Positions 2,337 to 51,562 of a DNA stretch of 57,520 bases are shown piece after piece. This DNA comes from an uncultured Eubacteriales bacterium (lineage in GTDB: Bacteria > Bacillota > Clostridia > Lachnospirales > Lachnospiraceae). The stretch's first letter is position 1. Each line of letters opens with the position of its first letter. The stretch is taken from positions 1 to 57,520 of the forward strand of contig ONPU01000013.1 in the NCBI GenBank assembly GCA_900319795.1, read 5' to 3'. A program made the position numbers and the translations under genes. The notes under the pieces were generated by a model. That model was not told where the DNA came from, did not search any database, and was given only the letters and a program-made list of their open reading frames with translations.

Positions 2337-2347
2337 AGGGGAGAGAC

Positions 2348-2587
2348 ATGATTCTGACTGAATATAACGAAGAACTCCGGAAAAAAACATTGAGAGAAGA
2401 GGGTTTTGCAGAGGGCTTTGCAGAAGGCCTGGCAGAAGCCCGTGCGGAAGCCTATGAAGAAGGCGTGGAACTCTGCGCCAGCCTGATGAAGATCCTGCTT
2501 TCATCCGGCAGGCTGAAAGATGTAGAGAGAGCAGCGTCCGACAAAGCCTTCCGCGACGCACTGTTAAAAGAGTACAAACTACTCTAA
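2348..2587 (+). CDS. Free-standing duplicate of the Rpn C-terminal tail
   Basis: A 79-residue frame that begins MILTEYNEELRKKTLREEG and ends SSGRLKDVERAASDKAFRDALLKEYKLL-type, matching the last 60 residues of the Rpn-family protein just upstream. An extra insert of GFAEGFAEGLAEA-type repeats lies between the two conserved blocks. GGGGAGAGAC sits directly before the ATG, so it may be translated. In Rpn relatives such tails are variable in length and are made both within the full protein and from internal starts, where the short product can bind and modulate the nuclease. Here the tail exists as a separate copy. It could instead be the leftover of a second full Rpn gene after deletion of its nuclease part. 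Confidence 0.65.
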   Translation: MILTEYNEELRKKTLREEGFAEGFAEGLAEARAEAYEEGVELCASLMKILLSSGRLKDVERAASDKAFRDALLKEYKLL

Positions 2588-2605
2588 GCAAGGAGGAAAC
2601 CAGAA

Positions 2606-3616: not shown

Positions 3617-3659
3617 CCATGATAAAGAAGTAATCTCCATACCTGAGCACGCGGCTTCA

Positions 3660-4013
3660 CTATTTTGACTGTTTTAGTTTTAAACGGAGGTCGTCTGTCA
3701 TTTTGTACCACCGCTGTACGGTATTTTCCAGAAAGAAGTAGTGACAGAAATAAAACCCCAGCAGAATGGCCAGACCGATGAGGATGGCTGCGGCAAAAAC
3801 ATTTTGCGAAATAAGAACCACAGCGAGCACAAACAGCTCAACCACTACCACCATCACGGTGACAATGAGATGGATAAGGCGCTCGTGCTGAAGCCAGGCG
3901 ATCTTTTCCTTATGCTCCTGAAGGAGTTCTTCGGTAGGAGGCTCTGTACGGAGCTTTTCCTCGTGTTTGGCACACCATGCTTTCATATTGATGCCGAAGG
4001 TATCTTTTTTCAT
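3660..4013 (-). CDS. Small two-helix membrane protein, unknown
   Basis: From the ATG at 4013 the product is 117 residues. It has a charged N-terminal half (MKKDTFGINMKAWCAKHEEK onward), two hydrophobic helices separated by a short turn (LIVTVMVVVVELFVLAVVLI and AAILIGLAILLGFYFCHYFF), and a basic C-terminal tail. The frame stays open upstream to a TTG at 4118, which would add 35 residues; an AAGGAGG lies within that extension near 4070. The start is therefore uncertain. I do not recognise a family. The terminal basic tail after two membrane helices suggests a simple hairpin protein with both ends in the cytoplasm. Confidence 0.6.
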   Translation of the reverse strand: MKKDTFGINMKAWCAKHEEKLRTEPPTEELLQEHKEKIAWLQHERLIHLIVTVMVVVVELFVLAVVLISQNVFAAAILIGLAILLGFYFCHYFFLENTVQRWYKMTDDLRLKLKQSK

Positions 4014-4185
4014 ATTATTATGGCGCCGAGTGCTCAGAGTGAAGTCAGGGGCAGGAGACGCCGCCTCCTTTCTTGAGGTCTGGTTTTCTGATATAATTTT
4101 CTGACGCGTTTTTTTCAAATAATGGTGCAGCGTTTCTTTCTTTTAAGGAAATTATAATGATTGCGATTCGTAAAGGAAAGCTGGA

Positions 4186-4207
4186 GATAATTGTTTATAC
4201 AATTATC
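4186..4207. promoter_or_regulatory. Perfect 9-bp palindrome between divergent genes
   Basis: GATAATTGT (4186-4194) and ACAATTATC (4199-4207) form a perfect inverted repeat with a 4-base centre, in the A/T-rich gap between the minus-strand membrane protein and trmL. The size and symmetry fit an operator for a dimeric helix-turn-helix regulator. No T-run follows, so a terminator is unlikely. Confidence 0.35.
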
Positions 4208-4327
4208 GCAGATTTCACTTTTAGCGAGCAAATTATTATAATAATTAAAATGGAAAACTGCCACTCAAAGACTTATTGTTTCACAATTTGACAGGCAGAA
4301 AACATTTCTATAGAAGAGGTGAGCAAC

Positions 4328-4825
4328 ATGAGTATCGGCATCATTCTGCATGAACCGGAACAGCCCGGCAACGCAGGGGCCATCGGGAGGACCTGCCTTT
4401 GCATGGGCGCGTCCCTTCATCTGATCCGGCCGCTCGGATTTATGACAAGCGACCGCTTTTTGAAGAGGGCCGGGCTCGACTACTGGCCGAGGCTGAATCC
4501 GACGGAATATGACAACTACGAGGAATTTCTGACGGCTCATCCCGGAGCCAGGGTCTGGTTCCTGACGACGAAGGCCCATCAGACGATCAGCGACGTGGAA
4601 TACCGGGACGGAGATTTCCTCATGTTCGGGAAAGAGAGCGCGGGGATTCCGGAGGAGCTTCTGGCGCCGCATCCCGAGATGTGTGTCCGTATTCCGATGG
4701 CGGAAGGGGAACGCTCTTTGAATCTTGCCGCGTCCTGTGCCATTGCGCTCTATGAAGCGGAGCGGCAGCTCGGATATAAGGACCTGGTTCGTACAGGTGA
4801 GCTGCACAGACTGCATTTTTCATAA
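4328..4825 (+). CDS. trmL: tRNA (cytidine(34)-2'-O)-methyltransferase TrmL
   Basis: A 165-residue SPOUT-class methyltransferase. It begins MSIGIILHEPEQPGNAGAIG, the first motif of the TrmL/CspR branch; the Asn of PGNAGAIGRTC is conserved. The C-terminal trefoil knot is visible as FGKESAGIPEELL and IPMAEGERSLNLAASCAIAL, which bind S-adenosylmethionine. TrmL methylates the 2'-hydroxyl of wobble base 34 in leucine tRNAs, a role known from the family. I took the ATG at 4328, which is preceded by AGAGGTG at good spacing, rather than the in-frame GTG at 4319. The length matches the family (150-165). It is followed by a terminator shared with the convergent MATE gene. Confidence 0.93.
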   Translation: MSIGIILHEPEQPGNAGAIGRTCLCMGASLHLIRPLGFMTSDRFLKRAGLDYWPRLNPTEYDNYEEFLTAHPGARVWFLTTKAHQTISDVEYRDGDFLMFGKESAGIPEELLAPHPEMCVRIPMAEGERSLNLAASCAIALYEAERQLGYKDLVRTGELHRLHFS

Positions 4826-4854
4826 GGGATAGTCTGCGCAGACTGCATAATAAA

Positions 4855-4881
4855 AGCAGGTGATTGTTCACCTGCTGTTTT
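4855..4881. terminator. Bidirectional terminator between trmL and the MATE gene
   Basis: AGCAGGTGA (4855-4863) pairs with TCACCTGCT (4868-4876) around TTGT, preceded by TAAAA and followed by GTTTTTA. It lies between two convergent stop codons, so it serves both genes. Confidence 0.8.
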
Positions 4882-6263
4882 TAGTGAATGGTAAGGTCCT
4901 GAACCCATATGCATTTTCGAAAATGAATGAGCACCCACGGAATTTTTCCCACCTCGTCCACGCAGGTGCATGCGTAAACCGCTACGACCGGCCAATGGAA
5001 GAAAAATGCTCCGGCCAGAGCCAGCGGAATCGCGAGGCCCCACATGGAAACCGCGAGGGAATACATATCGAACAGCGTGTCGCCGCCGGAATCCATGACG
5101 CCGTTGATCATGATCGTGTTGACTACGCGGCCGATCATATAAAAGGCCATGACGATCATCATGCCCGTCAGGTAGGAATGGGCCTTGGGAGTCAGTTTCA
5201 CCATACGGACAACGAGCGGCGTGATGGCCAGGATGAAAGCTGTGGAAGCGAACCCCAGGACGAATGAGAAGTTTCTCAGTTTATAGCCGTAGGCCTTTCC
5301 TTCGGCCAGGTTGCCCGCGCCGAGCTCATTTCCAACCATGATGGCGGCAGCGGTTGCGATACCGTTGCATACGCAGCAGGCAAGGTCGCGGATGACTGCG
5401 GCGATGGAATTGGAAGCTGCCGCGTCCGCGCCCAGATGGCCAATGATCGCGGTATAGGACGTAAAGCCGACACCCCAGAGCAGCGAGCCGCCCATGAGCG
5501 GGAGGCATTGCCGGATAAATGAAAGAAGAAGCTCTTTCCGGTCTTTGAAAAAATGAGCGAAGTCCGGAGTGAGATAGTCGTCCCGCGTTGACAGGATCAG
5601 GCAAAACAGAAGCTCCAGAGCACGGGCGATAGTGGTCGCGAGAGCGGCACCCCTGGCTTCCATCCGGAGCAGACCCAGAAGGCCGAAGATCAGAAGAGCG
5701 TTAAAAATGATATTCATCACAACAGCGGACGAACCAATTACCGCGCTTTCACGGACGTGGTCGGTGACTTTCATCATGCTCAGATAACACTGGGAAACTC
5801 CGGTCAGAAGATACGACCATCCGGCGATCCGCAGGTACGGCATGCCGATTTCGATCAGCACCGGGTCATGGGTGAATATACGCATAAGAAGACCGGGCGT
5901 CAGTTCACAGCCGAGGAAGAAGATCAATGAGACGGCGACGCTGAAGCGGATCATCATATTGAAGAGTTCGCGCATCGTCTTTTTGTCGCCTTTGCCCCAG
6001 TACTGAGCACCCAGAATGGAACCGGCACTCGTAATGCCCAGTACGAAAATGTTCTGGACGAACTGAACCTGGGTGGCGAGGGAGACGGCGGCCATTTCGT
6101 TCTGCGCGATGCGGCCGAGCATCAGGGCATCGGCGGCCGCGACGGAGGCCAGCATGAAGGATTGCAGCGCGATCGGGAGGGTCAGCTGCCACAGTCTGCT
6201 GTAAAACGTACGGTTGTCGATTTTCGCGGGCTTGAGTTCCCTTACGTTGATGGTGTTAGTCAT
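4881..6263 (-). CDS. MATE family efflux transporter
   Basis: A 460-residue membrane protein with about twelve hydrophobic helices in two homologous halves. It starts with a polar N-terminus and then LWQLTLPIALQSFMLASVAAADALMLG; this LPI...AD.lm.G pattern with the conserved Asp is typical of the DinF/NorM-like MATE family. The second half shows the matching SFIRQCLPLMGGSLLWGVGF. MATE proteins export cationic drugs or metabolites using H+ or Na+ gradients; the substrate is not predictable here. The stop codon abuts the terminator shared with trmL, and upstream lies a gene-free stretch leading to fumC, so it is a single-gene unit. Confidence 0.9.
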   Translation of the reverse strand: MTNTINVRELKPAKIDNRTFYSRLWQLTLPIALQSFMLASVAAADALMLGRIAQNEMAAVSLATQVQFVQNIFVLGITSAGSILGAQYWGKGDKKTMRELFNMMIRFSVAVSLIFFLGCELTPGLLMRIFTHDPVLIEIGMPYLRIAGWSYLLTGVSQCYLSMMKVTDHVRESAVIGSSAVVMNIIFNALLIFGLLGLLRMEARGAALATTIARALELLFCLILSTRDDYLTPDFAHFFKDRKELLLSFIRQCLPLMGGSLLWGVGFTSYTAIIGHLGADAAASNSIAAVIRDLACCVCNGIATAAAIMVGNELGAGNLAEGKAYGYKLRNFSFVLGFASTAFILAITPLVVRMVKLTPKAHSYLTGMMIVMAFYMIGRVVNTIMINGVMDSGGDTLFDMYSLAVSMWGLAIPLALAGAFFFHWPVVAVYACTCVDEVGKIPWVLIHFRKCIWVQDLTIH

Positions 6264-6725
6264 GGGTGATTATTCCTGTTTTTTCTGTAATCCCAGTGAT
6301 TGGTGTCTGCCCTGTATGTCTGCATGTTTCTGTCCTCACGCGGGCTTCTAAGCGGCTATCGTATCATGGATTAGAGCTGTCTTCAATGTGCAATTCTCAG
6401 CAAAAGCATATTGATTTTTGTCGGAACTGTTTTATGATGATGTATAACTTTTATATTTACTGTGTTAAGAGGGTTGCTGAAGATCATTGTATAAACAATT
6501 CAGACATCTGCACAAGTGATTAGTACTTCTTAGCTCGTCAGAAATTGTGTTGTTCGAAAAAATCACATTGTCTGAGCGCAGCGAGTTTGGGATTTTTTCG
6601 AACGGTTTTAGCAATTTCTGAGGAGCTTAGTAGTACTTCGCGCGGAAGCCGTCTGAATTGTTTATATAATGATCTCAGACTACGCTCTCGGCAGGTGTTT
6701 CAATAAAGTAAAGAGGATAAATGTT
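6264..6725. other. Gene-free region upstream of fumC
   Basis: This 460-base stretch separates the divergent MATE and fumC genes. The first 200 bases are A/T-rich with no coding signal I trust; a short plus-strand open frame at 6266-6523 lacks a ribosome binding site and runs into the inverted repeat. The second half is dominated by the long inverted repeat described separately. AAAGAGGA just before 6726 is the fumC ribosome binding site. Confidence 0.7.
6482..6674. repeat. Long imperfect inverted repeat (about 190 bp), MITE-like
   Basis: Three paired blocks are colinear. GATCATTGTATAAACAATTC at 6482 and the following AGAC pair with 6651-6674 at 23 of 24 positions. The region from 6519 (AGTACTTCTTAGCTC, then TCAGAAATTG) pairs with CAATTTCTGA and GAGCTTAGTAGTACT at about 6612-6638. 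TTCGAAAAAATC (6553-6564) pairs with GATTTTTTCGAA (6591-6602). The centre, 6565-6590, contains CTGAGCGCAGCGAG. The whole would fold into one long hairpin as RNA or cruciform. It codes for nothing, which fits a miniature inverted-repeat element or a dispersed intergenic repeat. No target-site duplication is obvious. Confidence 0.75.
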
Positions 6726-8111
6726 ATGGAATACAGAATAGAGCATGATTCAATGGGAGAAGTCCGAGTCCCGGCAGACCGCTACTGGGGCGCTCAGACC
6801 GAGCGCAGCCACGAAAACTTTCTGATCGGCGTAGGTATCGAAACGATGCCCGCCGAAATCATCCACGCATTCGGCATTCTGAAAAAAGCGGCCGCCAGGG
6901 CCAATGCCGCTTTGAAGCCCGAGAAGATGACCCAGAAGAAGCTGGAAGCAATCGAAAAGGCCTGCGATGAGGTGATCAGCGGAGAACTGGACGACCACTT
7001 CCCCCTTGTTGTGTGGCAGACCGGATCGGGCACGCAGTCCAATATGAACGCCAACGAAGTAATCGCGCACCGCGCGAATATGCTCGCAGCAAATGAATCT
7101 AAACCCCTTTGTCATCCGAACGACGACATCAATATGAGCCAGTCGTCAAATGATACATTTCCCACCGCGATGCACATTTCCGCCGTCCTTCAGATGGAGG
7201 ACTCTCTGATGCCGGCGGTGGAGCGCCTGATCGGAACATTTTCCGAATTGGAGAAGGCAAACGAGGGAATCGTGAAGTCCGGCAGGACGCATCTGCAGGA
7301 CGCGGTGCCGATTTCATTTTCCCAGGAAATATCGGGCTGGAGGAGTTCTCTCGAAAAAGACCTTGCCCTGATGAAGCTGGCTGTCGGTCCGCTCCGCGAA
7401 CTGGCGCTCGGTGGGACGGCCGTCGGCACGGGACTCAATGCGCCGGAAGGGTTTGACGTGCTTGTCGCGGAGGAAGTGTCGAAGCTGACCGGCAAGGAAT
7501 TCCGCACCGCTCCGAACAAGTTCCATGCACTGACATCAAAGGATGAGCTGGTTTTCGCGCACGGGGCAGTGAAAGCGCTTGCCGCGGACATGATGAAGAT
7601 CGCGAATGACATCCGCTGGCTGGCTTCCGGACCGAGACTTGGTCTTGGCGAAATCACAATTCCGGCAAATGAACCCGGCAGCTCGATCATGCCCGGAAAG
7701 GTCAATCCCACACAGTGCGAGCAGGTGACGATGGTTGCCGTTCAGGTGATGGGAAATGACGCCGCCGTCGGATTTGCCGCGTCCCAGGGGAATTTTGAGC
7801 TGAATGTGTTCATGCCGGTGATGGCGTACAATTTCCTGCAGTCCGTAAGGCTGCTTGCCGAGTCGATCGAATCGTTCCGCGTCAACTGCGCGGTCGGAAT
7901 TCGCGCCGATCAGGAAAAGATGCGCGGAAACCTGCACAATTCCCTGATGCTGGTGACGGCGCTCAATCCGTATATCGGTTATGAAAATGCCGCGAAAACG
8001 GCTCACCTTGCCTATGAAAACGGAATTTCACTGAAGGAGGCGTGCGTGCAGCTCGGATTCCTTACGGCGGAGCGCTTCGACGAGGTGTTCCATCCCGAGG
8101 AGATGATTTGA
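6726..8111 (+). CDS. fumC: Fumarate hydratase class II
   Basis: A 461-residue member of the fumarase/aspartase superfamily, the usual length. It interconverts fumarate and L-malate. Conserved regions are TGSGTQSNMNANEV, the SSNDTFPTAMH block, SGRTHLQDAVP with the catalytic-region His, and the flexible SS-loop GSSIMPGKVNPTQCEQ, where the second Ser is the general base. The TQCE after KVNP favours fumarase over aspartase (which has VNPV) or argininosuccinate lyase. I chose the ATG at 6726, preceded by AAAGAGGA; the frame is open to 6669 but that would run into the inverted repeat and lacks a start signal. The iron-independent class II enzyme is less usual in strict anaerobes, which mostly use the Fe-S type. 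Confidence 0.93.
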   Translation: MEYRIEHDSMGEVRVPADRYWGAQTERSHENFLIGVGIETMPAEIIHAFGILKKAAARANAALKPEKMTQKKLEAIEKACDEVISGELDDHFPLVVWQTGSGTQSNMNANEVIAHRANMLAANESKPLCHPNDDINMSQSSNDTFPTAMHISAVLQMEDSLMPAVERLIGTFSELEKANEGIVKSGRTHLQDAVPISFSQEISGWRSSLEKDLALMKLAVGPLRELALGGTAVGTGLNAPEGFDVLVAEEVSKLTGKEFRTAPNKFHALTSKDELVFAHGAVKALAADMMKIANDIRWLASGPRLGLGEITIPANEPGSSIMPGKVNPTQCEQVTMVAVQVMGNDAAVGFAASQGNFELNVFMPVMAYNFLQSVRLLAESIESFRVNCAVGIRADQEKMRGNLHNSLMLVTALNPYIGYENAAKTAHLAYENGISLKEACVQLGFLTAERFDEVFHPEEMI

Positions 8112-8154
8112 CGGACTTTTGACAGATGTGAAATTGACAGACGGAGGAATGTTG

Positions 8155-9417
8155 ATGAGCAAAAAGAGGGAACTTGTGAGAATCTGCCTGATTACGGGCT
8201 ATCTCGGAGCCGGAAAGACCACACTTCTGAACCGGATTCTGGCAAATCAGGAAGGAATCCGCGCCGCGGTGATCGTCAATGATATCGGCGAAGTGAATAT
8301 TGACGCGGAGCTGATTGAAAAGAACGGAGCGGTGTCCGTCGAGCAGAAGAGCCTCGTGCCGCTGACAAACGGCTGTATCTGCTGTACGTTGGCGGACGAT
8401 CTCGCGAAGCAGCTGAGCGACCTGGCTGTAACGGGCCTCTATAATTACATTATTATAGAAGCTTCCGGTGTCTGCGAACCGACTCCGATTGCCCAGACGA
8501 TCTCGGTGCTTTGCGAGGAGAACACGCTTGACGGCTATCCCATGAAGCTGGACAACATCGTCGCGGTTGTGGACTGCGCCCGTATGCTTGAGGAATTTGA
8601 CAATGGCCGGAAGCTCCTGAGAGACGCCATTGAAGAGGATGATATTGAGAATCTGCTTATTCAGCAGATTGAGTTCTGCAATACCATTTTGCTGAATAAA
8701 ACGGACCTGGTGGATCCGGGACGCATGGATGAGCTCAAATCCATCATCCGTGTGCTGCAGAAGGATGCCGTGATCTTCGAGACGAATCATGCGGAAATCG
8801 GCTTAAGCGAAATTCTGTTCACGGATCGGTTCGATATCAATAAATCCCTCGCAGCAGCGGGCTGGGTCGACGCGATCCAGAGCATGAAGGCGGGGAAAGA
8901 GGAGCCGGAACCGGCGTATGCGCATGAACTTCATGATGAACACGAACATGAGGATCATCACGAGCATCACCACGAACATCACCACGAACATCACCACGAA
9001 CATCATCACGACCACCATCATGACCATGAGGATGGAAACGGGCATTTGGAGGAATACGGAATCAGTACATTTGTCTATTACCGCCGGAGGCCATTTGTCC
9101 ATGATAAGCTGGCCGAGCTCTGTGCGTACTGGCCGCATTCGATCATAAGGGCAAAGGGCATGGTCTGGTACAAGGAGGAACCGTCTATTTCGTTCATGTT
9201 CGAACAGGCGGGCAGGCAGATCACGGAATCGCCTTCGGGCAAGTTTCTCGCGTCCGCGCCGAAGGAAGCGCAGGAGAGAATGCTGAAAACCTATCCCCAG
9301 ATCCTCGAAATGTGGGACGAAAAGTACGGGGACCGGATGATCAAGCTGGTTTTTATCGGAAAGAACATGGACCGGGAGGCGCTGGAGCTGCGCCTGGACG
9401 CCTGCCTCGGGGAATAA
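8155..9417 (+). CDS. CobW/COG0523 GTPase with a His-rich metal-binding loop
   Basis: A 420-residue G3E-family GTPase. The P-loop GYLGAGKTT lies at about residues 15-23, the family metal-binding motif CxCC is C74-I-C76-C77, and NKTD is the guanine-specificity motif. A loop at residues 257-297 contains 23 His in 41 residues, mostly as repeated HHHE units. A CobW C-terminal domain follows (FVYYRRRPFVHDKLAELC onward). Such proteins deliver Zn, Co, Ni or other metals to client enzymes with GTP hydrolysis; the CxCC and His loop favour zinc or nickel handling, which is inference. The start at 8155 follows GGAGG with 7-base spacing; the upstream TTG at 8119 and ATG at 8149 are poorer. It lies 43 bases after fumC and may share its transcript. 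Confidence 0.88.
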   Translation: MSKKRELVRICLITGYLGAGKTTLLNRILANQEGIRAAVIVNDIGEVNIDAELIEKNGAVSVEQKSLVPLTNGCICCTLADDLAKQLSDLAVTGLYNYIIIEASGVCEPTPIAQTISVLCEENTLDGYPMKLDNIVAVVDCARMLEEFDNGRKLLRDAIEEDDIENLLIQQIEFCNTILLNKTDLVDPGRMDELKSIIRVLQKDAVIFETNHAEIGLSEILFTDRFDINKSLAAAGWVDAIQSMKAGKEEPEPAYAHELHDEHEHEDHHEHHHEHHHEHHHEHHHDHHHDHEDGNGHLEEYGISTFVYYRRRPFVHDKLAELCAYWPHSIIRAKGMVWYKEEPSISFMFEQAGRQITESPSGKFLASAPKEAQERMLKTYPQILEMWDEKYGDRMIKLVFIGKNMDREALELRLDACLGE

Positions 9418-9419
9418 AG

Positions 9420-9484
9420 TGCACCACAGGTGCCAGACCCCTGTGGTGCAATCTGCACCACAAGTGCCAGGCACCTTTGGTACA
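9420..9484 (+). repeat. Two tandem 31-bp palindromic units, possible terminator
   Basis: Unit one (9420-9450) has TGCACCACAGG pairing perfectly with CCTGTGGTGCA. Unit two (9454-9484) has the same layout, TGCACCACAAGTGCC against GGCACCTTTGGTACA, with some mismatches. The two units are three bases apart and clearly related (shared TGCACCAC and GTGCCAG). They begin three bases after the CobW stop codon. There is no T-run after them, so a terminator role is uncertain; they may be a dispersed palindromic repeat family. Confidence 0.65.
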
Positions 9485-9490
9485 CTGTGC

Positions 9491-9519
9491 TTGACTCGGT
9501 TTTCATGGGGGTTTAAAAT
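9491..9519 (+). promoter_or_regulatory. Sigma-A type promoter for the Thr-Pro lipoprotein
   Basis: TTGACT (9491-9496) and TAAAAT (9514-9519) are separated by 17 bases, a near-consensus vegetative promoter placed about 70 bases before the lipoprotein start. Confidence 0.7.
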
Positions 9520-9591
9520 TAGGAACAGTATGAGTGGAACACTCATAAAGGGGCAAAGGCCGTTTATTTGGGACGGCAGAAACGGAGTTTA

Positions 9592-10632
9592 ATGATGAAG
9601 AAACGGAATCTGACTGGTGGGATCTGTGCGGCGGTTCTTGCAGCAGTGCTTCTTTGCGGCTGTGCCAATAATCAACAGGACGATTACACGTCGGAACTGG
9701 TGGACGCGACCGATGAGCAGGCGGCTGCGATTCTGACGGAGACGCCGACACCGACGCCTACGGACACACCGACACCGACAGCGACGGCAACACCGACGCC
9801 TACGGATACACCGACACCGACGCCGACACAGGCAGTCACTATTGAGCCTCTTGAAATTACGCCGAATCCGGATCCGGACGAAGGCCTGAAGCTGATCGGC
9901 GAAAAGGTCGAGGGCAAGAATGTCATCCGGAAAAAGATTACAAACGCAACCGGCGTGGATATCACGGGCGTCTTCTTCCGCGATCAGTGGATGGAAGACT
10001 GGCCGGACAATATGCTTTCCGGCGATGATGTATGGAAAGACATGGAGACCCGCTATCTGTACTATGATCCTACGGAGACTCTGGAAAGGGCCAAGGATTA
10101 CGGCGAAGCGGCCAAACTCCGCATGCTGGTGCTCTTCGGAGAAGACGGAGACGGCATCCTGCGTCACCTTCCGCTTGAGGATATGAGCGATATCCAGCTG
10201 ATGCGCGACGACGATGTGTTCTATCTGAAATATGTTTCGATCAAGGACATGAGCGAGAAATCCACGGAGAGACTCGAAAAGGGACTTGAAGAAGAGGAGG
10301 ATCAGCCGTCCGTAACGGAGGCGTCCGCATCCGCGAATGATTCTTCCGCGGCCAACAGTAACGCAAGCCAGAGCAGCACAGGCAATAACAGCGAAAGCAA
10401 TAATACCGAAAGCAATAATACCGAAAGCAACAATAACAATAACGACAACTACACCGAAGAAAATCATGAGGAGCAGAACGCCAATCAGGAAGAAGAGCAT
10501 CATGACGATGACGATGACAACGACGATGATGATGACGATGACGGGAATTATGATGACGGCGGCGACGACGGTGATTATGTAGACGAAGAGGCGCAGAGCC
10601 TGACGGTCTATGACGAGGAAGCGGTCGGCTGA
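9592..10632 (+). CDS. Lipoprotein with Thr-Pro repeats and an Asp-rich tail
   Basis: A 346-residue secreted lipoprotein. A basic start (MMKKRNLTGG) and a hydrophobic run end in the lipobox LLCGC, so Cys becomes the lipidated first residue. Next comes a Thr-Pro/Thr-Asp repeat spacer (about residues 45-75) that resembles cell-wall-spanning linkers. A domain of some 140 residues follows (from about IEPLEITPNPDPDEG to KDMSEKSTERLEKG) that I do not recognise. The C-terminus is low-complexity: Ser/Asn-rich repeats of SNNTE, then a stretch rich in His and Asp, possibly Ca2+-binding. GGAG lies just before the ATG at 9592, and the ATG at 9595 is equally possible. It is monocistronic with its own promoter. 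Confidence 0.8.
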   Translation: MMKKRNLTGGICAAVLAAVLLCGCANNQQDDYTSELVDATDEQAAAILTETPTPTPTDTPTPTATATPTPTDTPTPTPTQAVTIEPLEITPNPDPDEGLKLIGEKVEGKNVIRKKITNATGVDITGVFFRDQWMEDWPDNMLSGDDVWKDMETRYLYYDPTETLERAKDYGEAAKLRMLVLFGEDGDGILRHLPLEDMSDIQLMRDDDVFYLKYVSIKDMSEKSTERLEKGLEEEEDQPSVTEASASANDSSAANSNASQSSTGNNSESNNTESNNTESNNNNNDNYTEENHEEQNANQEEEHHDDDDDNDDDDDDDGNYDDGGDDGDYVDEEAQSLTVYDEEAVG

Positions 10633-10684
10633 AACATTTAAAAACAATGGAAACAGGACATTTCCGATTTATGAAATATTCTGA

Positions 10685-10713
10685 TTGACGAGCGAAAGAA
10701 GCTGTGCTATAGT
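10685..10713 (+). promoter_or_regulatory. Promoter of rpmG-secE-nusG
   Basis: TTGACG (10685-10690), a 17-base spacer and TATAGT (10708-10713) form a near-consensus promoter. The start site would fall near 10720, inside the right half of an overlapping hairpin/T-run structure. Confidence 0.8.
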
Positions 10714-10746
10714 TGAAAAGCTACCAGTAACAGCTTCTTTTTTTTT
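10695..10746 (+). terminator. Terminator overlapping the rpmG promoter
   Basis: AAAGAAGCTGT (10695-10705) pairs with ACAGCTTCTTT (10730-10740) and is followed by T's to 10746. The left arm lies in the promoter spacer. Read-through RNA from the lipoprotein gene would form it and terminate, while transcripts starting near 10720 lack the left arm and carry only the small AAGCT/AGCTT hairpin before the T-run. The arrangement insulates the two units. Confidence 0.65.
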
Positions 10747-10798
10747 GCTTAAAAATAAAAGAAGACGCAAGCTAACGAATCATTGGAGGTGAACAGCC

Positions 10799-10948
10799 GT
10801 GCGTACAAGGATCACATTAGCGTGTACAGAATGCAAGCAGCGCAATTACAATACCATGAAGGATAAGAAAGAACATCCTGAAAGAATGGAGACTAAGAAA
10901 TACTGCAAGTTCTGCCGCAAACATACGCTTCACAAAGAAACAAAGTAA
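10799..10948 (+). CDS. rpmG: Large ribosomal subunit protein bL33 (zinc-binding form)
   Basis: A 49-residue protein translated from GTG, with GGAGGTGA nine bases upstream. It begins (V/M)[11 protein letters not shown] and carries two CxxC pairs (C9/C12 and C36/C39), so it is the zinc-containing C+ type of L33. [13 protein letters not shown] is typical of the C-terminal half. In Firmicutes a copy of rpmG next to secE-nusG is standard. Genomes often keep a zinc-free paralogue elsewhere that is induced when zinc is short; none is visible in this window. Confidence 0.95.
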
Positions 10949-10972
10949 TCGGAAGATAATCGGGTAGTTACG

Positions 10973-11185
10973 ATGGCAGAGAATAACACAAAGACAAAAG
11001 AACAGAAGAAGACCAGCTTTATGCAGGGCGTAAAGCGTGAGTGGAAGAAGATCAACTGGGTATCCCGTGAGGATCTTGTCAAGGAAACCGGTATCGTCGT
11101 GGTGCTGTCCCTCATTCTGGGCGTGATCATCACAGCGGTAGACAGCGGTGCTCTTAGACTGATCGACTGGATACTGAACCTTTAA
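10973..11185 (+). CDS. secE: Preprotein translocase subunit SecE
   Basis: A 70-residue protein with a basic amphipathic segment FMQGVKREWKKINWVSREDL, the conserved SecE motif, then one membrane helix (GIVVVLSLILGVIITAVDSG). It clamps the two halves of SecY in the SecYEG channel. Single-helix SecE of 60-75 residues is normal for Gram-positive bacteria. It lies 24 bases after rpmG and 32 bases before nusG, as in most Firmicutes. Confidence 0.95.
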   Translation: MAENNTKTKEQKKTSFMQGVKREWKKINWVSREDLVKETGIVVVLSLILGVIITAVDSGALRLIDWILNL

Positions 11186-11217
11186 AGATTCTTGAATCAC
11201 GACAGGAGAGACATCAT

Positions 11218-11760
11218 ATGTCACAAGCGAACTGGTATGTTATTCATACTTATTCGGGCTATGAGAATAAGGTGAAAGCCAATATCGAAAAAACTGTCGG
11301 CAACCGCCATCTGGAGGATCAGATTCTGGATGTCCGTGTCCCGCTCGAAGATGTGCAGGAGACCAAGAACGGCGTCACGAAGATGGTTCAGAGAAAAATG
11401 TTCCCCGGCTATGTCCTGGTCAACATGGTCATGAATGACGAGACCTGGTATGTCGTGCGGAACACAAGGGGTGTCACGGGATTCGTCGGACCGGGAAGCA
11501 AGCCGGTGCCGCTTTCGCCGGATGAAATGTGGCCGCTCGGAATCGGAGCGAAGAACGATACGCCTTCGCAGCCGAAGCCGAAGATCGTGGTCGATTACGA
11601 ACCGGGAGATATGGTCGTGGTCATCGCCGGTGCCTGGGAAGGCACGGAAGGTGCTGTCCAGGCCGTCAATGCCCAGAAGCAGACTGTGACGATTTCCGTA
11701 GAGCTTTTCGGAAGAGCGACACCTGTGGAGATCGGATTCGCGGAAGTAAAGAAGAGATAA
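11218..11760 (+). CDS. nusG: Transcription termination/antitermination factor NusG
   Basis: A 180-residue protein with the NGN domain at the N-terminus (WYVIHTYSGYENKVKANIEK and KMFPGYVLVNMVM, which contact the RNA polymerase clamp) and the KOW domain at the C-terminus (YEPGDMVVVIAGAWEGTEGAV). In Gram-positive bacteria NusG promotes sequence-specific pausing as well as elongation. ACAGGAGAG lies ahead of the ATG. It ends the rpmG-secE-nusG unit, 98 bases before rplK. Confidence 0.96.
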   Translation: MSQANWYVIHTYSGYENKVKANIEKTVGNRHLEDQILDVRVPLEDVQETKNGVTKMVQRKMFPGYVLVNMVMNDETWYVVRNTRGVTGFVGPGSKPVPLSPDEMWPLGIGAKNDTPSQPKPKIVVDYEPGDMVVVIAGAWEGTEGAVQAVNAQKQTVTISVELFGRATPVEIGFAEVKKR

Positions 11761-11761
11761 G

Positions 11762-11796
11762 CCCCGCCGGAGAAACAATAATGAGCCACTCCGGGG
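11762..11796 (+). promoter_or_regulatory. Hairpin in the nusG-rplK gap, possible r-protein operator
   Basis: CCGGAG (11767-11772) pairs with CTCCGG (11789-11794), and flanking C's and G's can extend it. It has no T-run. The L11-L1 mRNA leader is where ribosomal protein L1 binds to repress its own operon in other bacteria. The match to that site is not established here. Confidence 0.3.
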
Positions 11797-11858
11797 AGAA
11801 AGGGTTTTCTTAAAGTGGAAGGGTTTCATACTCGCCATACCACAAAGGAGGATACATC

Positions 11859-12284
11859 ATGGCAAAGAAAGTAACGGGTTACATCAAATTGCAGATTCCG
11901 GCCGGCAAGGCAACACCTGCTCCGCCGGTAGGTCCGGCTCTGGGCCAGCACGGTGTCAACATTGTTCAGTTTACAAAGGCATTTAACGCCAAGACCGCTC
12001 AGATGGGCGACACCATCATCCCGGTCGTCATCACTGTCTATGCTGACCGCAGTTTTACATTTGTCACAAAGACCCCGCCTGCAGCAGTGCTGATCAAGAA
12101 AGCGCTGAATCTGCCGAAGGCATCGGGCGAACCGAACAAGAAGAAAGTCGGCAATATCACCAAGGCTCAGATCCGCGAGATCGCTGAGACCAAGATGCCG
12201 GACCTGAACGCGGGCAGCATTGAAGCCGCGATGAGCATCATCGAAGGCACTGCACGCAGCATGGGCGTTGTTGTCGTTGACTGA
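11859..12284 (+). CDS. rplK: Large ribosomal subunit protein uL11
   Basis: A 141-residue protein. [20 protein letters not shown] and [19 protein letters not shown] form the N-terminal domain, whose Pro-rich face binds thiopeptide antibiotics and translation GTPases; the C-terminal domain binds the 23S rRNA GTPase centre. Length and sequence are standard. AAAGGAGG lies 9 bases upstream. It is followed 69 bases later by rplA in the same unit. Confidence 0.97.
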
Positions 12285-12353
12285 TCACAAGTGGAAGGAA
12301 CCACGCACTAACAGATCGAGCGGTTCCGCAAGGACCACAGGGAGGTTATAAAA

Positions 12354-13046
12354 ATGAAGCACGGAAAGAAATATGTGGAAGCAGCAAAGGCCATTGACCG
12401 CGCTGCTCTGTATGATCCGGAAGAGGCGATCGCGCTTGTCAAGAAGACCGCGACAGCCAAATTCGATGAAACTGTTGAAGTACATGTCCGCACGGGCTGC
12501 GACGGCCGTCATGCCGATCAGCAGGTTCGTGGTGCCGTCGTTCTTCCGAACGGCACAGGCAAGACCGTTCGCGTTCTCGTTTTCGCGAAGGGTGCAAAGG
12601 CTGAAGAAGCCCAGGCTGCCGGAGCTGACTATGTCGGCGAGATGGATCTCGTACCGAGAATCCAGAATGAAGGCTGGCTTGATTTCGACGTCGTCGTCGC
12701 TACACCGGATATGATGGGTGTTGTCGGACGTCTCGGCCGTATCCTCGGCCCGAAGGGCTTAATGCCGAACCCGAAAGCCGGAACCGTTACCATGGACGTC
12801 ACAAAGGCGATCCAGGATATCAAAGCCGGTAAGATCGAGTACCGTCTCGACAAGAGCAACATCATCCATGTTCCGATCGGCAAGGCTTCCTTCTCCGAAG
12901 AACAGCTGAAGGAAAACTTCGACGCTCTGATGGAAGCTCTGAACAAGGCTCGTCCGTCGGCAGTGAAGGGTGCTTATCTCCGCACTGTCACGATGGCTTC
13001 CACGATGGGCCCGGGCGTCAAGGTGAACCCGCTTAAAGTTCAGTAA
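12354..13046 (+). CDS. rplA: Large ribosomal subunit protein uL1
   Basis: A 230-residue protein: [40 protein letters not shown] and the signature [15 protein letters not shown] are all present. L1 forms the mobile stalk next to the E site and in many bacteria represses the L11-L1 operon by binding its mRNA. GGGAGG precedes the ATG. The L10 promoter and leader follow within 20 bases of its stop codon. Confidence 0.97.
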
Positions 13047-13059
13047 ATAAAAAAGAAAC

Positions 13060-13088
13060 TTGACACTGCTTTCATGCGGTGTTAGAGT
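13060..13088 (+). promoter_or_regulatory. Promoter of rplJ-rplL
   Basis: TTGACA (13060-13065), 17 bases, TAGAGT (13083-13088). It sits directly ahead of the L10 leader and would start transcription near 13095. Confidence 0.75.
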
Positions 13089-13099
13089 GATAAAGCATC

Positions 13100-13186
13100 A
13101 AGCCGAAGACAGCAGGTGTCCGGACGGATCATTTTCAAAATGAATGACCAAAGGGACGTAAGCTTAAAAACGCCTGCCGAGGATTT
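13100..13186 (+). ncRNA. L10 leader, r-protein autoregulatory RNA
   Basis: The segment from AAGCCGAAGACAGCAGGTG (from 13100) to CGCCTGCCGAGGA (13171-13183) matches the known Firmicute L10 leader. GCAGGTG pairs with the distal GCCTGC and the conserved AAGACAGCAGG and CCTGCCGAGG strands frame a kink-turn-like site bound by the L10-(L7/L12)4 complex. Between them lies a variable hairpin with CATTTTCAAAATG. It is followed by an intrinsic attenuator, so excess L10 complex would lower rplJL expression. Confidence 0.85.
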
Positions 13187-13233
13187 GATTTTTCGTGGAA
13201 TGCGTATGCATTTTCAAAATGAGAGATCATCAG

Positions 13234-13261
13234 GTCCTGCGTCTTACGGCGCAGGACTTTT
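13234..13261 (+). terminator. Attenuator downstream of the L10 leader
   Basis: GTCCTGCG (13234-13241) pairs with CGCAGGAC (13250-13257) around TCTTACGG and is followed by TTTTGT. It stands about 50 bases after the leader and 60 before rplJ, the usual position for the regulated terminator of this leader class. Confidence 0.8.
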
Positions 13262-13323
13262 GTAATGATCCGGATTGTCTCAACCGGAGAGTTACGATAA
13301 ATAATAAAGGAGGAAATGAGTTC

Positions 13324-13830
13324 ATGGCAAAGGTAGAACTGAAACAGCCGATTGTACAGGAAATCGCCGGTACGGTCGAAGGTGCTCAGTCCGCAGTGCT
13401 TGTGAAGTATCTCGGCCTTACGGTAGAGCAGGATACTGCAATGCGTAAGGAACTCCGTGAAGCCGGCGTTGTCTATAAGGTTTATAAGAATACCCTTATG
13501 AAGCGCGCTTTCGAGGGAACCGAATTCGAAGCACTTTCCGAGCATCTCGACGGCCCGAACGCTCTCGCTGTTTCGAAAGACGATCCGATTGCACCGGAGA
13601 AGATTCTTTCCAAGTATGTGAAGAACTACAAACCGTTCGAGTTTGTAGCGGGCGTAATCGAAGGCAAATACGCGGATAGCAATAAGCTGGTCGAGATGGC
13701 GAACATCCCGTCGAGAGAAGTTCTTCTCGGAAGACTGTTCGGAAGCATGCAGTCCCCGATCGCGAACTTCGCGCGTGTGGTTAAGCAGATTGCCGAAAAA
13801 GACGGCGAAGCTGCTCCGGCTGAAGAATGA
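13324..13830 (+). CDS. rplJ: Large ribosomal subunit protein uL10
   Basis: A 168-residue protein starting MAKVELKQPIVQEIAGTVEG at the ATG after AAAGGAGGAAATGAGTTC. The frame is open further upstream through the leader RNA, but that part is not coding. L10 anchors L7/L12 dimers through its C-terminal helix and contacts 23S rRNA near L11, forming the stalk base. With L7/L12 it acts as the repressor that reads the upstream leader. It is followed by rplL in 82 bases. Confidence 0.97.
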   Translation: MAKVELKQPIVQEIAGTVEGAQSAVLVKYLGLTVEQDTAMRKELREAGVVYKVYKNTLMKRAFEGTEFEALSEHLDGPNALAVSKDDPIAPEKILSKYVKNYKPFEFVAGVIEGKYADSNKLVEMANIPSREVLLGRLFGSMQSPIANFARVVKQIAEKDGEAAPAEE

Positions 13831-13912
13831 TTTTGAAACAGGATTGAATATTTTACAGATTCTCATTGGAAACAGATATTGTGAAATGGAATTGTCATAG
13901 GAGGAAATCATC

Positions 13913-14290
13913 ATGGCAAAGTTAACTACTGAAGAATTTATCGCAGCGATCAAAGAGCTGACAGTTACTGAACTCAATGACCTCGTCAAGGCTTGTGAAG
14001 AGGAATTCGGCGTTTCCGCAGCAGCAGGTGTTGTGGTAGCGGCTGGCCCGGCTGCTGAAGGCCCGGCTGAAGAAGAGAAGACTGAATTCGATGTCGAGCT
14101 GACAGAAGTTGGCGCATCCAAGGTTAAGGTCATCAAGGTTGTCCGTGAAGCTACAGGACTTGGCCTGAAGGAAGCTAAGGAAGTCGTTGACTCCGCTCCG
14201 AAGGTAGTCAAGGAAGCTCTCGACAAGGAAGCTGCTGAAGACCTGAAGAAGAAGCTTGAAGAAGTTGGCGCGAAGGTTACTCTTAAGTAA
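13913..14290 (+). CDS. rplL: Large ribosomal subunit protein bL7/L12
   Basis: A 125-residue acidic stalk protein. The N-terminal dimerisation domain ([20 protein letters not shown]) is followed by an Ala/Gly/Pro-rich hinge and the C-terminal domain [20 protein letters not shown]...[15 protein letters not shown], which recruits translation GTPases. ATAGGAGG precedes the ATG. A strong terminator follows, separating it from rpoB, which has its own promoter. Confidence 0.97.
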
Positions 14291-14320
14291 TTAAGCCTCT
14301 ATTATATTCAAGAACAATCA

Positions 14321-14356
14321 CGGGACGACTTGCTTAAAAGTCGTCCCGTATTTTTT
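14321..14356 (+). terminator. Terminator after rplL
   Basis: CGGGACGACTT (14321-14331) pairs with AAGTCGTCCCG (14339-14349), GC-rich, and is followed by TATTTTTT. It is likely leaky or partial, as in other bacteria where rplJL transcripts continue into rpoBC. Confidence 0.9.
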
Positions 14357-14366
14357 AAAAAAAGCT

Positions 14367-14396
14367 TTGACAAGTGACAGGCTCTTGTGTTAGTAT
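14367..14396 (+). promoter_or_regulatory. Promoter of rpoB-rpoC
   Basis: TTGACA (14367-14372), 18 bases, TAGTAT (14391-14396), directly after the rplL terminator. The start site would be near 14403, giving a leader of about 180 bases. Confidence 0.75.
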
Positions 14397-14580
14397 GGAC
14401 GATGCACTATTATGGAGCGCTGTCATTTTGTGCGCATTTTTATGAGTTTGGAAGGTTCAGGCGGCATTTTGTGCCCTCCTGGTCTTTTTAGAGGCCTGAA
14501 TTTTTTGAATTGTCTGAGAAATGCATCAAAAACAGCGTTGTTCACAATAAATATAGATGAAAAGCGGGGTAAAACGACGA
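14397..14580 (+). promoter_or_regulatory. rpoB leader with an attenuator-like hairpin
   Basis: TTCAGGC (14456-14462) pairs with GCCTGAA (14494-14500), followed by TTTTTT (14501-14506), a full intrinsic-terminator layout inside the 5' leader. A smaller GGCA/TGCC hairpin sits within its loop. A first hairpin GCGC/GCGC with the CATTTTGTGC word lies near 14417-14438, and the same CATTTTGTGC word recurs at 14465. The repeated word and the terminator suggest conditional read-through controlling rpoBC. The ligand or protein is unknown. Confidence 0.55.
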
Positions 14581-18459
<3,879 letters not shown>

Positions 18460-47212: not shown

Positions 47213-47391
47213 GATCCCTATTTTACTCCAAGCGAAGCTCCAAGAAAAGGAGAAATGCCCGGGCGGGAGCGGACTACATTTTACACGTATGTAACAAATT
47301 GTTCATAATCGGATGCTATACTCTTTTTACTGTGACTGTAAACTCTTCGGGAATACTGTTATTTCAACAGAAATGTCTTTGGCTTAAAATC

Positions 47392-48921
47392 ATGGACGAA
47401 GAAAACCGTTTCAACGAATCGGATAGTGAAGAGGAAGAGTCTTATTCCTTTATGCGGGAGACTGTTAAGAAACGGCCTCTCCGTTTTTCACGCATTCTTT
47501 TGAAAGCCCTGATGTTCCTTGGTGCAGGCGCCCTGTTTGGTGCGGCAGCGGCTTTTGTCTTTTTGCATGCCATCAAAGTGAACGCAGTTCCCTCAAATAT
47601 TTCTGAAGAAGCGACCGTACAGAGCGAATCGGCGGAACAGACAGAAGTGATCGAACAGGCAGAGCCGACGGAACAGGCAGAGGCGACGGATCAGGCGGAG
47701 CCGACGGAAGCGACAGAGCCGACGGAAGTGATAGAGCCAACGGACCAGGCAGAGCCAACGGACCAGGCAGAACCGACCGCCCAGGTGGATCAGGCAGAGC
47801 AGCTCGAAACAGAAGTGACAGACATGAAACCGACGGAAGAGCCGGTTGAGGAAGAGGCCCGCGAAGAACAGGTTGAAGGAACGACCGGAATTCCGGGTGA
47901 AGAGGGCCCCGGGGAAAACAGCGCCGAGGCTGAAGAGAAACTCAACGCGGAGGCTCTCAACGAATACAAAAGACTCAATGAGGCAATAAGAGGAGTCGCG
48001 GAAGAAGCGGGGAAATCCCTTGTACAGGTTACCGGTATTACGGATTCGGTGGACTGGTTCAGCAATATCAACAGCGCGTCCCAGACCGGTTCGGGAGTGA
48101 TCATCAGGGAAGAGAATGACCGTCTGATGATTCTGACATACAGGAATCTGGTCGCGGATGCCGGCCGTGTCGTTGTCACGATGAAAGACCAGTCGGTCCG
48201 CGCGGCTCTGGTTGTCGGGTCGGATCCGGTCACCAATCTGGCGGTAGTGTCCGTGCCATTTGACAGGGAATCGGATCGCGAGGAAATGGAATGGGCAGCG
48301 GTGAACATAGCGGATTCCGCGGAGGTCCGTACGGGAGATTCGGTGATTGCAATCGGGAATCCGTTGGGGTATAGTAATTCTGTTGTTTACGGAGAAGTGA
48401 CATCTACCTCCGGGCATGTTTCGCTTACAGACAGTGAATACGGTTTGATTACGACCAATTGTGTGGGAAGCAGCCGGGGAAGCGGCATTCTCGTCGATCT
48501 CAACGGACAGATCGTGGGATGCATCATGCAGCAGTATTCAGATGAAAAATGGCCTCTCATCACAGCCGTTCCTTCCTCTTTACTGAAAGATATTGCTGAC
48601 AGACTTTCGGACGGAAAAGTACCCGGATATGTCGGCCTGAAAGGGGAGAGCGTTACGGTACAGGTTGCGGAAGGAATCGATGTGCCGGCAGGCGTCTACA
48701 TCACTGAAGTGGAGCCGGACTCGCCGGCGCTTGCAGCCGGTATCATGCCGGGAGATGTGCTGACGAAGATCGGAGATCTGGAAATCGCTGACATGCAAAC
48801 GGTTTCCGAATGTGTGTTGGAAGCGGGACCGAATCAGGAACTGGAATTCACGGTTCTTCGGCGCGGCGCGGAAAAGGATGTCGAATTTTCATTTACAGTG
48901 ACGGTTGGAGAACTTACGTGA
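47392..48921 (+). CDS. HtrA-like PDZ membrane protein without intact catalytic triad
   Basis: A 509-residue membrane protein with the layout of HtrA: cytoplasmic start, one helix (ILLKALMFLGAGALFGAAAAFVF), a 110-residue spacer made of PTEQAE/PTDQAE repeats, a trypsin-like beta-barrel (about 195-395) and a C-terminal PDZ domain (AGVYITEVEPDSPALAAGIMPGDVLTKIGDLEI). Where HtrA has TNxHVV it has TYRNLVADA (His to Asn, N252); where HtrA has TDLAV it has TNLAVV (Asp to Asn, N282); the GNSGGP region reads GSSRGSGILVD, which puts Gly363 at the Ser position unless a two-residue insertion is assumed. It is therefore probably a pseudoprotease that binds proteins. The ATG at 47392 has no strong ribosome binding site and starts further up are possible. 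Confidence 0.8.
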   Translation: MDEENRFNESDSEEEESYSFMRETVKKRPLRFSRILLKALMFLGAGALFGAAAAFVFLHAIKVNAVPSNISEEATVQSESAEQTEVIEQAEPTEQAEATDQAEPTEATEPTEVIEPTDQAEPTDQAEPTAQVDQAEQLETEVTDMKPTEEPVEEEAREEQVEGTTGIPGEEGPGENSAEAEEKLNAEALNEYKRLNEAIRGVAEEAGKSLVQVTGITDSVDWFSNINSASQTGSGVIIREENDRLMILTYRNLVADAGRVVVTMKDQSVRAALVVGSDPVTNLAVVSVPFDRESDREEMEWAAVNIADSAEVRTGDSVIAIGNPLGYSNSVVYGEVTSTSGHVSLTDSEYGLITTNCVGSSRGSGILVDLNGQIVGCIMQQYSDEKWPLITAVPSSLLKDIADRLSDGKVPGYVGLKGESVTVQVAEGIDVPAGVYITEVEPDSPALAAGIMPGDVLTKIGDLEIADMQTVSECVLEAGPNQELEFTVLRRGAEKDVEFSFTVTVGELT

Positions 48922-49865: not shown

Positions 49866-51335
49866 ATGACTGAACTTAAGAAAAATGACAGCGTCAGGCT
49901 GTTCATAGAAGATTTTACGAAAGAAGGAGAGGGTATAGGCCATGTTGACGGCTATACCCTTTTTGTAAAGGATGCAGTGATCGGTGATGAGGTCATGGCC
50001 CTTGTTACCAAGGCGAAAAAGAATTATGCGTTCGCGAAAATGACGGAGATTCTTGTCCCCTCACCGGACCGGGTAAAGCCTCGCTGCGCAAATGCGCGAC
50101 GCTGCGGAGGATGCCGTTTCCAGGAATACTCTTATGAAAAACAGCTGGAATGGAAGCGTGCCCATGTCAAAGATGTGATGGTCAGAATCGGAGGCTTTCC
50201 GGACCTGGAAGTGCGTCCGGTGATCGGCATGGAGGATCCCTGGCGGTATCGCAATAAAGCCCAGTATCCGGTAGGGGTCGTGAAAAAACCTGACGGGAGC
50301 TATGAGACAGCAGCGGGCTTTTACGCGGGAAGAACGCATTTTCTGATTGAGACGGACGACTGCGTGCTGACACACGAAATCAATGGGCAGATTGTGAGAC
50401 GATTTGTCGACTTCTTGAAGCGATATGATATTTCCCCATATGATGAACAGAATCATACAGGCCTCGTCCGGCATCTGCTGATCAGGGAGGGGTTCGCGAC
50501 CGGGGAAATTCTTGTTTGCCCCGTTATCAACGGAGACAGGCTGCCGCATGCTGATGAACTGATTTCATTGCTTCGTGAAGTGCCGGGGGTCAAGAGCATT
50601 TGCCTCAATGTCAACAAGGAAAAAGGCAACGTGATTCTGGGAGAACAGATCCTTCCTTTATATGGCAATCCATGGATTGAGGATGTCCTTCTCGGAAACC
50701 GTTTCCGGATTTCTCCGCGCAGCTTTTATCAGGTAAATCCCGTTCAGACGGAAAAGCTCTATACGGAGGCACTTCGTGCTGCTGATTTGAAGGGTACAGA
50801 AGTCGTCTATGATCTCTACTGCGGAATCGGCACTATTTCACTGTGCATGGCATCCCGGGCCAGAGAGGTTTACGGGGTGGAGATCGTTCCGGACGCGGTA
50901 CGGGACGCAAAGGAGAACGCGCTTCGTAACGGCATCGGGAATGTACATTTCTATACAGGCGCCGCGGAGGATCTCGTAGTCCGCGGAGAATTCGAGCCGG
51001 GTGTTCCCTGCCCGAAAGCAGATGTTGTGGTATTGGATCCGCCGAGAAAAGGGTGTGACGCATCGCTTATCGATGCCGTTCTGAAGATGGCGCCGGACCG
51101 GATCGTGTATGTGAGCTGTGACCCGGCAACTTTGGCCAGGGATCTGAAGCTTTTTGCTGAGGGCAGAGATGGGGTCGCTTTTAAGCCGGTATATGCGCAG
51201 CCGACGGATCTGTTTGGGCACACTGTGCACGTTGAGACGGTATGTTTATTGTCCAAACTTTCTGAAGTCAAGAATCATATCAGTGTGAAGGTCGATATGA
51301 ATGAAATGGATCTGACGGCGGCGGAGAGTAAGTGA
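49866..51335 (+). CDS. rlmD: 23S rRNA (uracil-5-)-methyltransferase, truncated at the C-terminus
   Basis: A 489-residue RlmD/RumA-type enzyme. An N-terminal TRAM domain (VRLFIEDFTKEGEGIGHVDG), Cys residues of a [4Fe-4S] cluster (CANARRCGGC, plus DDC further on), the SAM motif VVYDLYCGIGTISL and the catalytic Cys in VYVSCDPATLARDL are intact. It makes 5-methyluridine in 23S rRNA. The core ends normally with HTVHVETVCLLSKL. Its last codons lie in the first copy of a perfect 20-bp tandem duplication that introduces a TGA; without one copy the frame would continue into the next 76-codon frame, an extension found fused to relatives in this group. Confidence 0.93.
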   Translation: MTELKKNDSVRLFIEDFTKEGEGIGHVDGYTLFVKDAVIGDEVMALVTKAKKNYAFAKMTEILVPSPDRVKPRCANARRCGGCRFQEYSYEKQLEWKRAHVKDVMVRIGGFPDLEVRPVIGMEDPWRYRNKAQYPVGVVKKPDGSYETAAGFYAGRTHFLIETDDCVLTHEINGQIVRRFVDFLKRYDISPYDEQNHTGLVRHLLIREGFATGEILVCPVINGDRLPHADELISLLREVPGVKSICLNVNKEKGNVILGEQILPLYGNPWIEDVLLGNRFRISPRSFYQVNPVQTEKLYTEALRAADLKGTEVVYDLYCGIGTISLCMASRAREVYGVEIVPDAVRDAKENALRNGIGNVHFYTGAAEDLVVRGEFEPGVPCPKADVVVLDPPRKGCDASLIDAVLKMAPDRIVYVSCDPATLARDLKLFAEGRDGVAFKPVYAQPTDLFGHTVHVETVCLLSKLSEVKNHISVKVDMNEMDLTAAESK

Positions 51336-51352
51336 CGGCGGCGGAGAGTAAG
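51313..51352 (+). repeat. Perfect 20-bp tandem duplication in rlmD
   Basis: Copy one is 51313-51332 and copy two is 51333-51352; both read TGACGGCGGCGGAGAGTAAG. Twenty is not a multiple of three, so the insertion shifts the frame and creates TGA at 51333-51335. The same change creates a GTG at 51332 whose frame is the original one. The lack of any mismatch suggests a recent event or slippage. Confidence 0.97.
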
Positions 51353-51562
51353 GCGACCTATCAGGAGATTAAGGAGTGGGTGAAGGAGAAGTATGGATTC
51401 CAAGTGTCGCATTTGAATATCGCAAAGACGAAGCGGAAATGTGGGATCATCGAACGGCAGAATTACAATCTGCCGAAAAGTGAGGATAGCCGGTCGCCGG
51501 AGACACCGAAGGAAAAGGAAGAGGCGATCATTGCGGCGTTTAAGGCGTTTCGGATGATCTGA
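51332..51562 (+). CDS. Split-off C-terminal extension of RlmD
   Basis: A 76-codon frame from a GTG that overlaps the rlmD stop as GTGA. It reads MTAAESKATYQEIKEWVKEK, then YGFQVSHLNIAKTKRKCGIIERQNYN and a charged end EKEEAIIAAFKAF. Similar extensions, ATYQEIKxYV...KCGIIERENYNxPKSED, are fused to the C-terminus of RlmD-like proteins in Lachnospiraceae and to other proteins. The helix-rich form suggests a small nucleic-acid or protein-binding module. It may be made by re-initiation at the GTG or be lost altogether. No ribosome binding site of its own is seen. Confidence 0.65.
   Translation: MTAAESKATYQEIKEWVKEKYGFQVSHLNIAKTKRKCGIIERQNYNLPKSEDSRSPETPKEKEEAIIAAFKAFRMI

Follow-up and report, generated by a model that had tools for sequence, protein, structure and literature searches.

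The rlmD gene in the 57,520-nucleotide stretch of DNA analyzed here (the window) is interrupted by a perfect 20-bp tandem duplication that changes its reading frame. The duplication lies in an optional tail of rlmD that is exchanged with integrase genes, and this split is likely a case of ordinary decay more than a built switch. Large serine recombinases (LSRs) of integrative elements would cross over at the codons ETV-CLLSK (51234-51260), and at each integration rlmD and the LSR gene would trade 3′ ends. By this route, the window rlmD would have come to hold an LSR-type tail of approximately 100 residues with a small helical domain at its end. A later 20-bp duplication in the tail would have shifted the frame and introduced a TGA, with RlmD again ending soon after its catalytic domain and the module left behind as a detached ORF.

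The duplication and the split gene

rlmD (rumA; 49866-51335, forward strand) encodes a 23S rRNA (uracil-1939-C5)-methyltransferase of 489 residues that ends at the duplication-made TGA. The protein matches TIGR00479 with 425.1 bits (cut-off 183.55) over residues 18-457, corresponding to positions 2-432 of the 432 in the profile, and harbors the Pfam domains tRNA_U5-meth_tr and TRAM. The gene upstream, which we take to be an HD-domain gene, is also found next to rlmD at 10 of the 15 relative loci. The other five (L178, L179, L183, L189, and L190) lack it within the 0.5-1.1 kb of upstream sequence covered; L183 has a response-regulator match in its place. An ORF at 47299-48921 of the window contains a long E/P/T/Q/A-rich repeat stretch (Tandem Repeats Finder arrays at 47607-47785), followed by a presumably protease-like region.

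The 20-bp unit TGACGGCGGCGGAGAGTAAG is present twice, head to tail, on the forward strand: copy 1 occupies 51313-51332 and copy 2, with the TGA stop of rlmD at its start, 51333-51352. The identity of the two copies, described in the first-pass annotation, is confirmed by the sequence and by Tandem Repeats Finder (period 20, 2.0 copies, 100% matches). With up to three mismatches allowed, the 20-mer matches the window only twice, both within the array itself, and two matches occurred in 0 of 100 shuffles. Read from the sequence, the bases flanking 51313-51352 do not extend the repeat. The unit is not a multiple of three, and the array is thereby a perfect frame-changing tandem repeat of the kind expected at a phase-variable locus.

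The same annotation had placed the stop of rlmD at 51333-51335 and a GTG at 51332 opening a 76-residue ORF in the original frame (51332-51562, forward strand), and both are as described. Stop and possible start overlap as GTGA (51332-51335, forward strand), an overlap that is automatic because the last base of the repeat unit is G and its first three are TGA. In the module frame, TAA (51329-51331) immediately precedes the GTG, which thus opens that frame. Five bases upstream lies GGAG (51323-51326, forward strand), which may act as a Shine-Dalgarno sequence and which the first-pass annotation does not mention.

Though shortened, the window RlmD is inside the natural length range of its genus. 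It extends 30 residues past ETV, and tails after ETV in the genus comprise 6 to 102 residues (9 of the 32 loci yielded no RlmD body, and contig ends truncate the tails of L037 and L054).

An LSR-type module behind a common putative crossover core

The 76-residue module scores below the cut-off of every Pfam and NCBIfam family, and a search for a relative of solved structure returned none. AlphaFold2 predicts three helices, at residues 9-20, 26-36, and 59-71, with moderate confidence (mean pLDDT 72.5). In relatives, the module recurs as the C-terminal part of three kinds of protein: RlmD, RlmD paralogues, and LSRs, the last recognized by their Resolvase, Recombinase, and zinc-ribbon domains. 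Across the order, 100 of 392 genomes contain it. Among 197 distinct intact modules (the window's excluded), 108 share a frame with an RlmD-type protein and 35 with an LSR, leaving 54 without either partner; the linker was excluded from the reference for these counts to avoid in-frame LSR calls via the linker alone. The in-frame LSR assignment of L027, L076, L088, and L140 is probably such a linker-only artefact, and L005 is a separated RlmD paralogue, not an LSR-module fusion. Viral contigs L156-L160, L163, L166, L168, L170, and L172-L175 harbor tandem LSR gene pairs, the first of which carries the module behind its own, different linker.

The module is not specific to RlmD, being an unnamed C-terminal domain that LSRs also have. 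The first-pass annotation had missed its nature as a tail of LSR type that genes exchange and that is attached at a putative integrase crossover site; its loss is therefore unremarkable for RlmD.

The putative crossover region is a 27-base core, GAGACGGTATGTTTATTGTCCAAACTT (51234-51260, forward strand; codons ETVCLLSKL), at the start of the exchanged linker that connects the RlmD body to the module (51234-51312, forward strand). Thirty of 174 other loci, at 29 distinct places, contain exactly this core behind differing upstream sequence; among them are rlmD-type genes, an LSR gene (L157), and orphan tails. The junction of the tail lies at these codons, and RlmD and LSR genes draw on a common pool of tails. 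E-T-(V/I/C) codons occur within 40 residues before the module in 45 of 46 in-frame RlmD rows, the exception being L265, which has none.

Tail and body of rlmD are discordant in their nucleotide identity to relatives. The linker stretch 51224-51332 is 84-92% identical to its 14 best matches listed, which are rlmD-type genes and orphan tails of other genomes, and the module is 80-85% identical to its own 14 best matches listed. For the rlmD body, the corresponding value is 65-71% (14 best matches listed, aligned stretches of at least 600 bases). Two near-identical rlmD genes part at the core: the one in G022 has the module tail and the one in G020 a tail of 6 residues. Up to the core, 27-30 of 30 bases are alike in six blocks; past the first ten bases of the core, only 6-12 of 30 are. 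From these patterns, recombination itself probably took place at 51234-51260.

Two trees bear on the same question. In a tree of 198 modules, built on few columns and with 106 of 195 inner branches open, the 15 LSR modules with an ETV junction need 14 label changes against a shuffled mean of 14.6 and are therefore mixed almost at random among the others. The 20 LSR modules with an internal linker, among which L196 is counted despite its ETV-like junction, need 3 changes against a shuffled mean of 19.3 and form nearly one group. In the genus RlmD tree (21 rows), the presence of the module is scattered (5 changes, shuffled mean 5.4), a pattern that fits exchange but gives no direction.

In G022, rlmD with the module and an LSR gene with the module lie on one contig and the same strand, approximately 11 kb apart. 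In L061 (G022:C19:71000-90000), positions 1796-14997 look like an element, approximately 11 kb in size, that lies within the 3′ end of rlmD and is bounded by rlmD with the module on one side and an LSR gene with the module on the other. L062 and L063 (G052:C2) contain, on one strand, an RlmD paralogue with the module (4373-6106 of L063), an LSR with the module (8437-10464 of L062), and an orphan module (5103-5483 of L062), a series that looks like successive insertions at one site. L064 (G057:C1:129000-136000) has an RlmD paralogue followed by three successive ORFs (2058, 3647, and 5490), each containing an ETV-type motif or terminating in one, which may be the remains of nested elements.

The window's own genome, an 82% complete assembly of 23 contigs, has one module, that in the window, and one LSR gene, at the end of contig C16. 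No LSR gene, other crossover end, or element was found beside the window rlmD in this 82% complete genome, nor was an element with an LSR gene at its other end. The tail is therefore a relic or was acquired by exchange, and is not part of an integrated element. The second RlmD paralogue of this genome (L193, G000:C16:114500-120250) has a different tail, ending in DYYRIKDAKKN, with the LSR gene about 2 kb behind it and cut by the contig end.

Integrative elements of streptococci provide a precedent, and the G022 layout corresponds to the one described for them. According to the portions of the reports available to us, streptococcal ICEs and IMEs with serine integrases insert in rumA (PMC4701971, PMC5357655) with, as in the window, the crossover inside the gene, and the 3′ ends of rumA and of the serine-integrase gene are reciprocally exchanged on integration (PMC4701971). 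In contrast to the streptococcal exchange, which reportedly alters the frame, the window tail of about 100 residues is in frame as a unit and includes a conserved domain; it is broken by a duplication, and no element was found beside the gene. At the left end of Streptococcus phage YS162 (OP662530), an RlmD-like gene (1-1638, annotated as a SAM-dependent methyltransferase) carries the same module, with 60.6% identity over 91% of the query. Unlike in the window, the YS162 module is still within the annotated gene.

Fused and separated forms and the meaning of the split

The expectation that relatives encode a fused RlmD with this C-terminal module is borne out. In the same-genus genome G062, rlmD has a single 20-mer at this place and reads through into the module, where the contig ends; the fused form therefore exists. 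This gene is also the best nucleotide match to the linker among the matches listed (92% over 106 bases). The exact 20-mer is present in 7 of 195 loci, of which two are the window's own gene and two pairs are the same place twice. Beyond the window, it occurs at three other places with one copy each, against two in the window (exact 20-mers only), which amounts to a single change with no recurrent variation seen; at one of the three, L110, a stop lies inside the module. The module was presumably once fused to RlmD in the lineage of the window as well.

An order-wide survey was restricted to rows with E ≤ 1e-20, leaving out weaker and unlisted rows and G399:C1. Its 91 rows comprise 48 with RlmD in frame, 9 with RlmD separated, 8 with an LSR in frame, 9 with an LSR near but unjoined, and 17 that are orphan or undecided, in-frame status resting on the length of the open frame. 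Thus 48 of 57 RlmD-module rows are in frame (46 without and 2 with a stop inside the module), and 9, the window included, are separated. The separation is due to an in-frame stop in L201, L209, L211, and L216 and to a frame change in L214, L220, L222, and L223; of the nine, L201, L209, L216, L220, and the window retain an intact module. Further separated pairs are found in the genus, in G004 (L005) and G021 (L018/L069), and in L121. A one-base stop-start overlap in the module frame was present in 0 of the 11 other separated pairs (10 scored, L209 by eye).

LSRs often lose or break the module end too. Among the 17 rows that include an LSR, the module is joined to it in 8, or in 9 if L196 is counted, whose LSR is broken further up. 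LSR-type sequence stands closely before the module, with no single long open frame, in L196, L198, L199, L204, L208, L215, L217, L218, and L221; in L196, the module is in frame and the stop lies further up in the LSR. RlmD keeps its tail more often than LSRs do (48 of 57 vs 8 of 17), which speaks against pure junk.

The split could also be maintained and functional, with ribosomes restarting at the overlapping GTG to produce RlmD and a free 76-residue LSR-type domain from one message. Coupling of translation through overlapping stop and start codons is a known phenomenon (PMC6728339), and the window resembles the termination-reinitiation gene pairs described in the available part of that source in having an overlapping stop and start (GTGA, 51332-51335) with a Shine-Dalgarno-like motif before the start (GGAG, 51323-51326). 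In contrast to those pairs, the window GTGA occurs in one genome only among those examined and is a candidate for coupling. The module is undamaged, with a dN/dS of 0.065 to the nearest relative among the matches listed at a dS of approximately 1. Other separated relatives, too, have possible starts for the module frame close to the end of RlmD: L121 (around 9970-10000) has an ATG 14 bases upstream of the stop, L220 an ATG 8 bases upstream, and L005, L069, L201, and L211 have weaker candidates. The possibility of re-initiation is therefore not peculiar to the window. However, its one-base overlap is shared with none of the 11 other separated pairs and follows automatically from the repeat unit. 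Moreover, one genome shows neither age nor selection, because dS to the nearest relative listed is already about 1; selection on the module may persist, yet the low dN/dS does not distinguish this from a recent split. Re-initiation at GTG 51332 as such is plausible on the sequence, whereas a split maintained for this purpose is unlikely.

Slippage between one and two copies, toggling RlmD between fused and split forms, was the switch proposed in the first-pass annotation. A perfect tandem repeat whose 20-bp unit is not divisible by three would suit it, and tandem duplications in pneumococcal capsule genes have been linked to phase variation (work cited in the part of PMC4022640 available). Those duplications likewise lie inside an ORF; in contrast to them, as far as that part describes them, the window locus is without a known alternative allele or phenotype. 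No one-copy/two-copy pair was seen, the three other places with the exact 20-mer having one copy each, and the other separated pairs are due to other lesions at other positions. RlmD function should also differ little between the two forms because tails in the genus already vary from 6 to 102 residues. Beyond the repeat itself, nothing argues for the switch, and we regard it as very unlikely. The earlier interpretation therefore holds for the fused relatives and for the stop-start overlap, which is preceded by GGAG, and is not supported for the switch.

It is just as improbable that the duplication arose from a mistake in assembly or sequencing, the gene being fused in the cell. The assembly is a single draft, 82% complete, the closest relative of the tail among the matches listed (that in G062) reads through, and the module is without decay. 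However, the neighboring genes at 48.8-55.6 kb are long open frames, and neither assemblers nor homopolymer errors usually produce a perfect 20-bp duplication without a flanking repeat. Least probable is a separately translated integrase C-terminal domain that is coupled to RlmD, could act in trans on rlmD-site integrases, and could cease to be made when one 20-bp copy is lost.

The reading we prefer is a duplication that shifted the frame of an optional tail exchanged with integrases. The split in the window would be recent and nearly neutral, with little or no module protein presumably made, although re-initiation at the GTG may still occur.

The split itself is minor. More useful is its context, in which a conserved but unnamed C-terminal domain of LSRs travels between integrases and an rRNA methyltransferase with a housekeeping role. 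The annotated length and C-terminus of an RlmD can accordingly record past element traffic and not the evolution of RlmD. This context also lends itself to testing which of the two, the integrase or RlmD, depends on the LSR tail, if either does.
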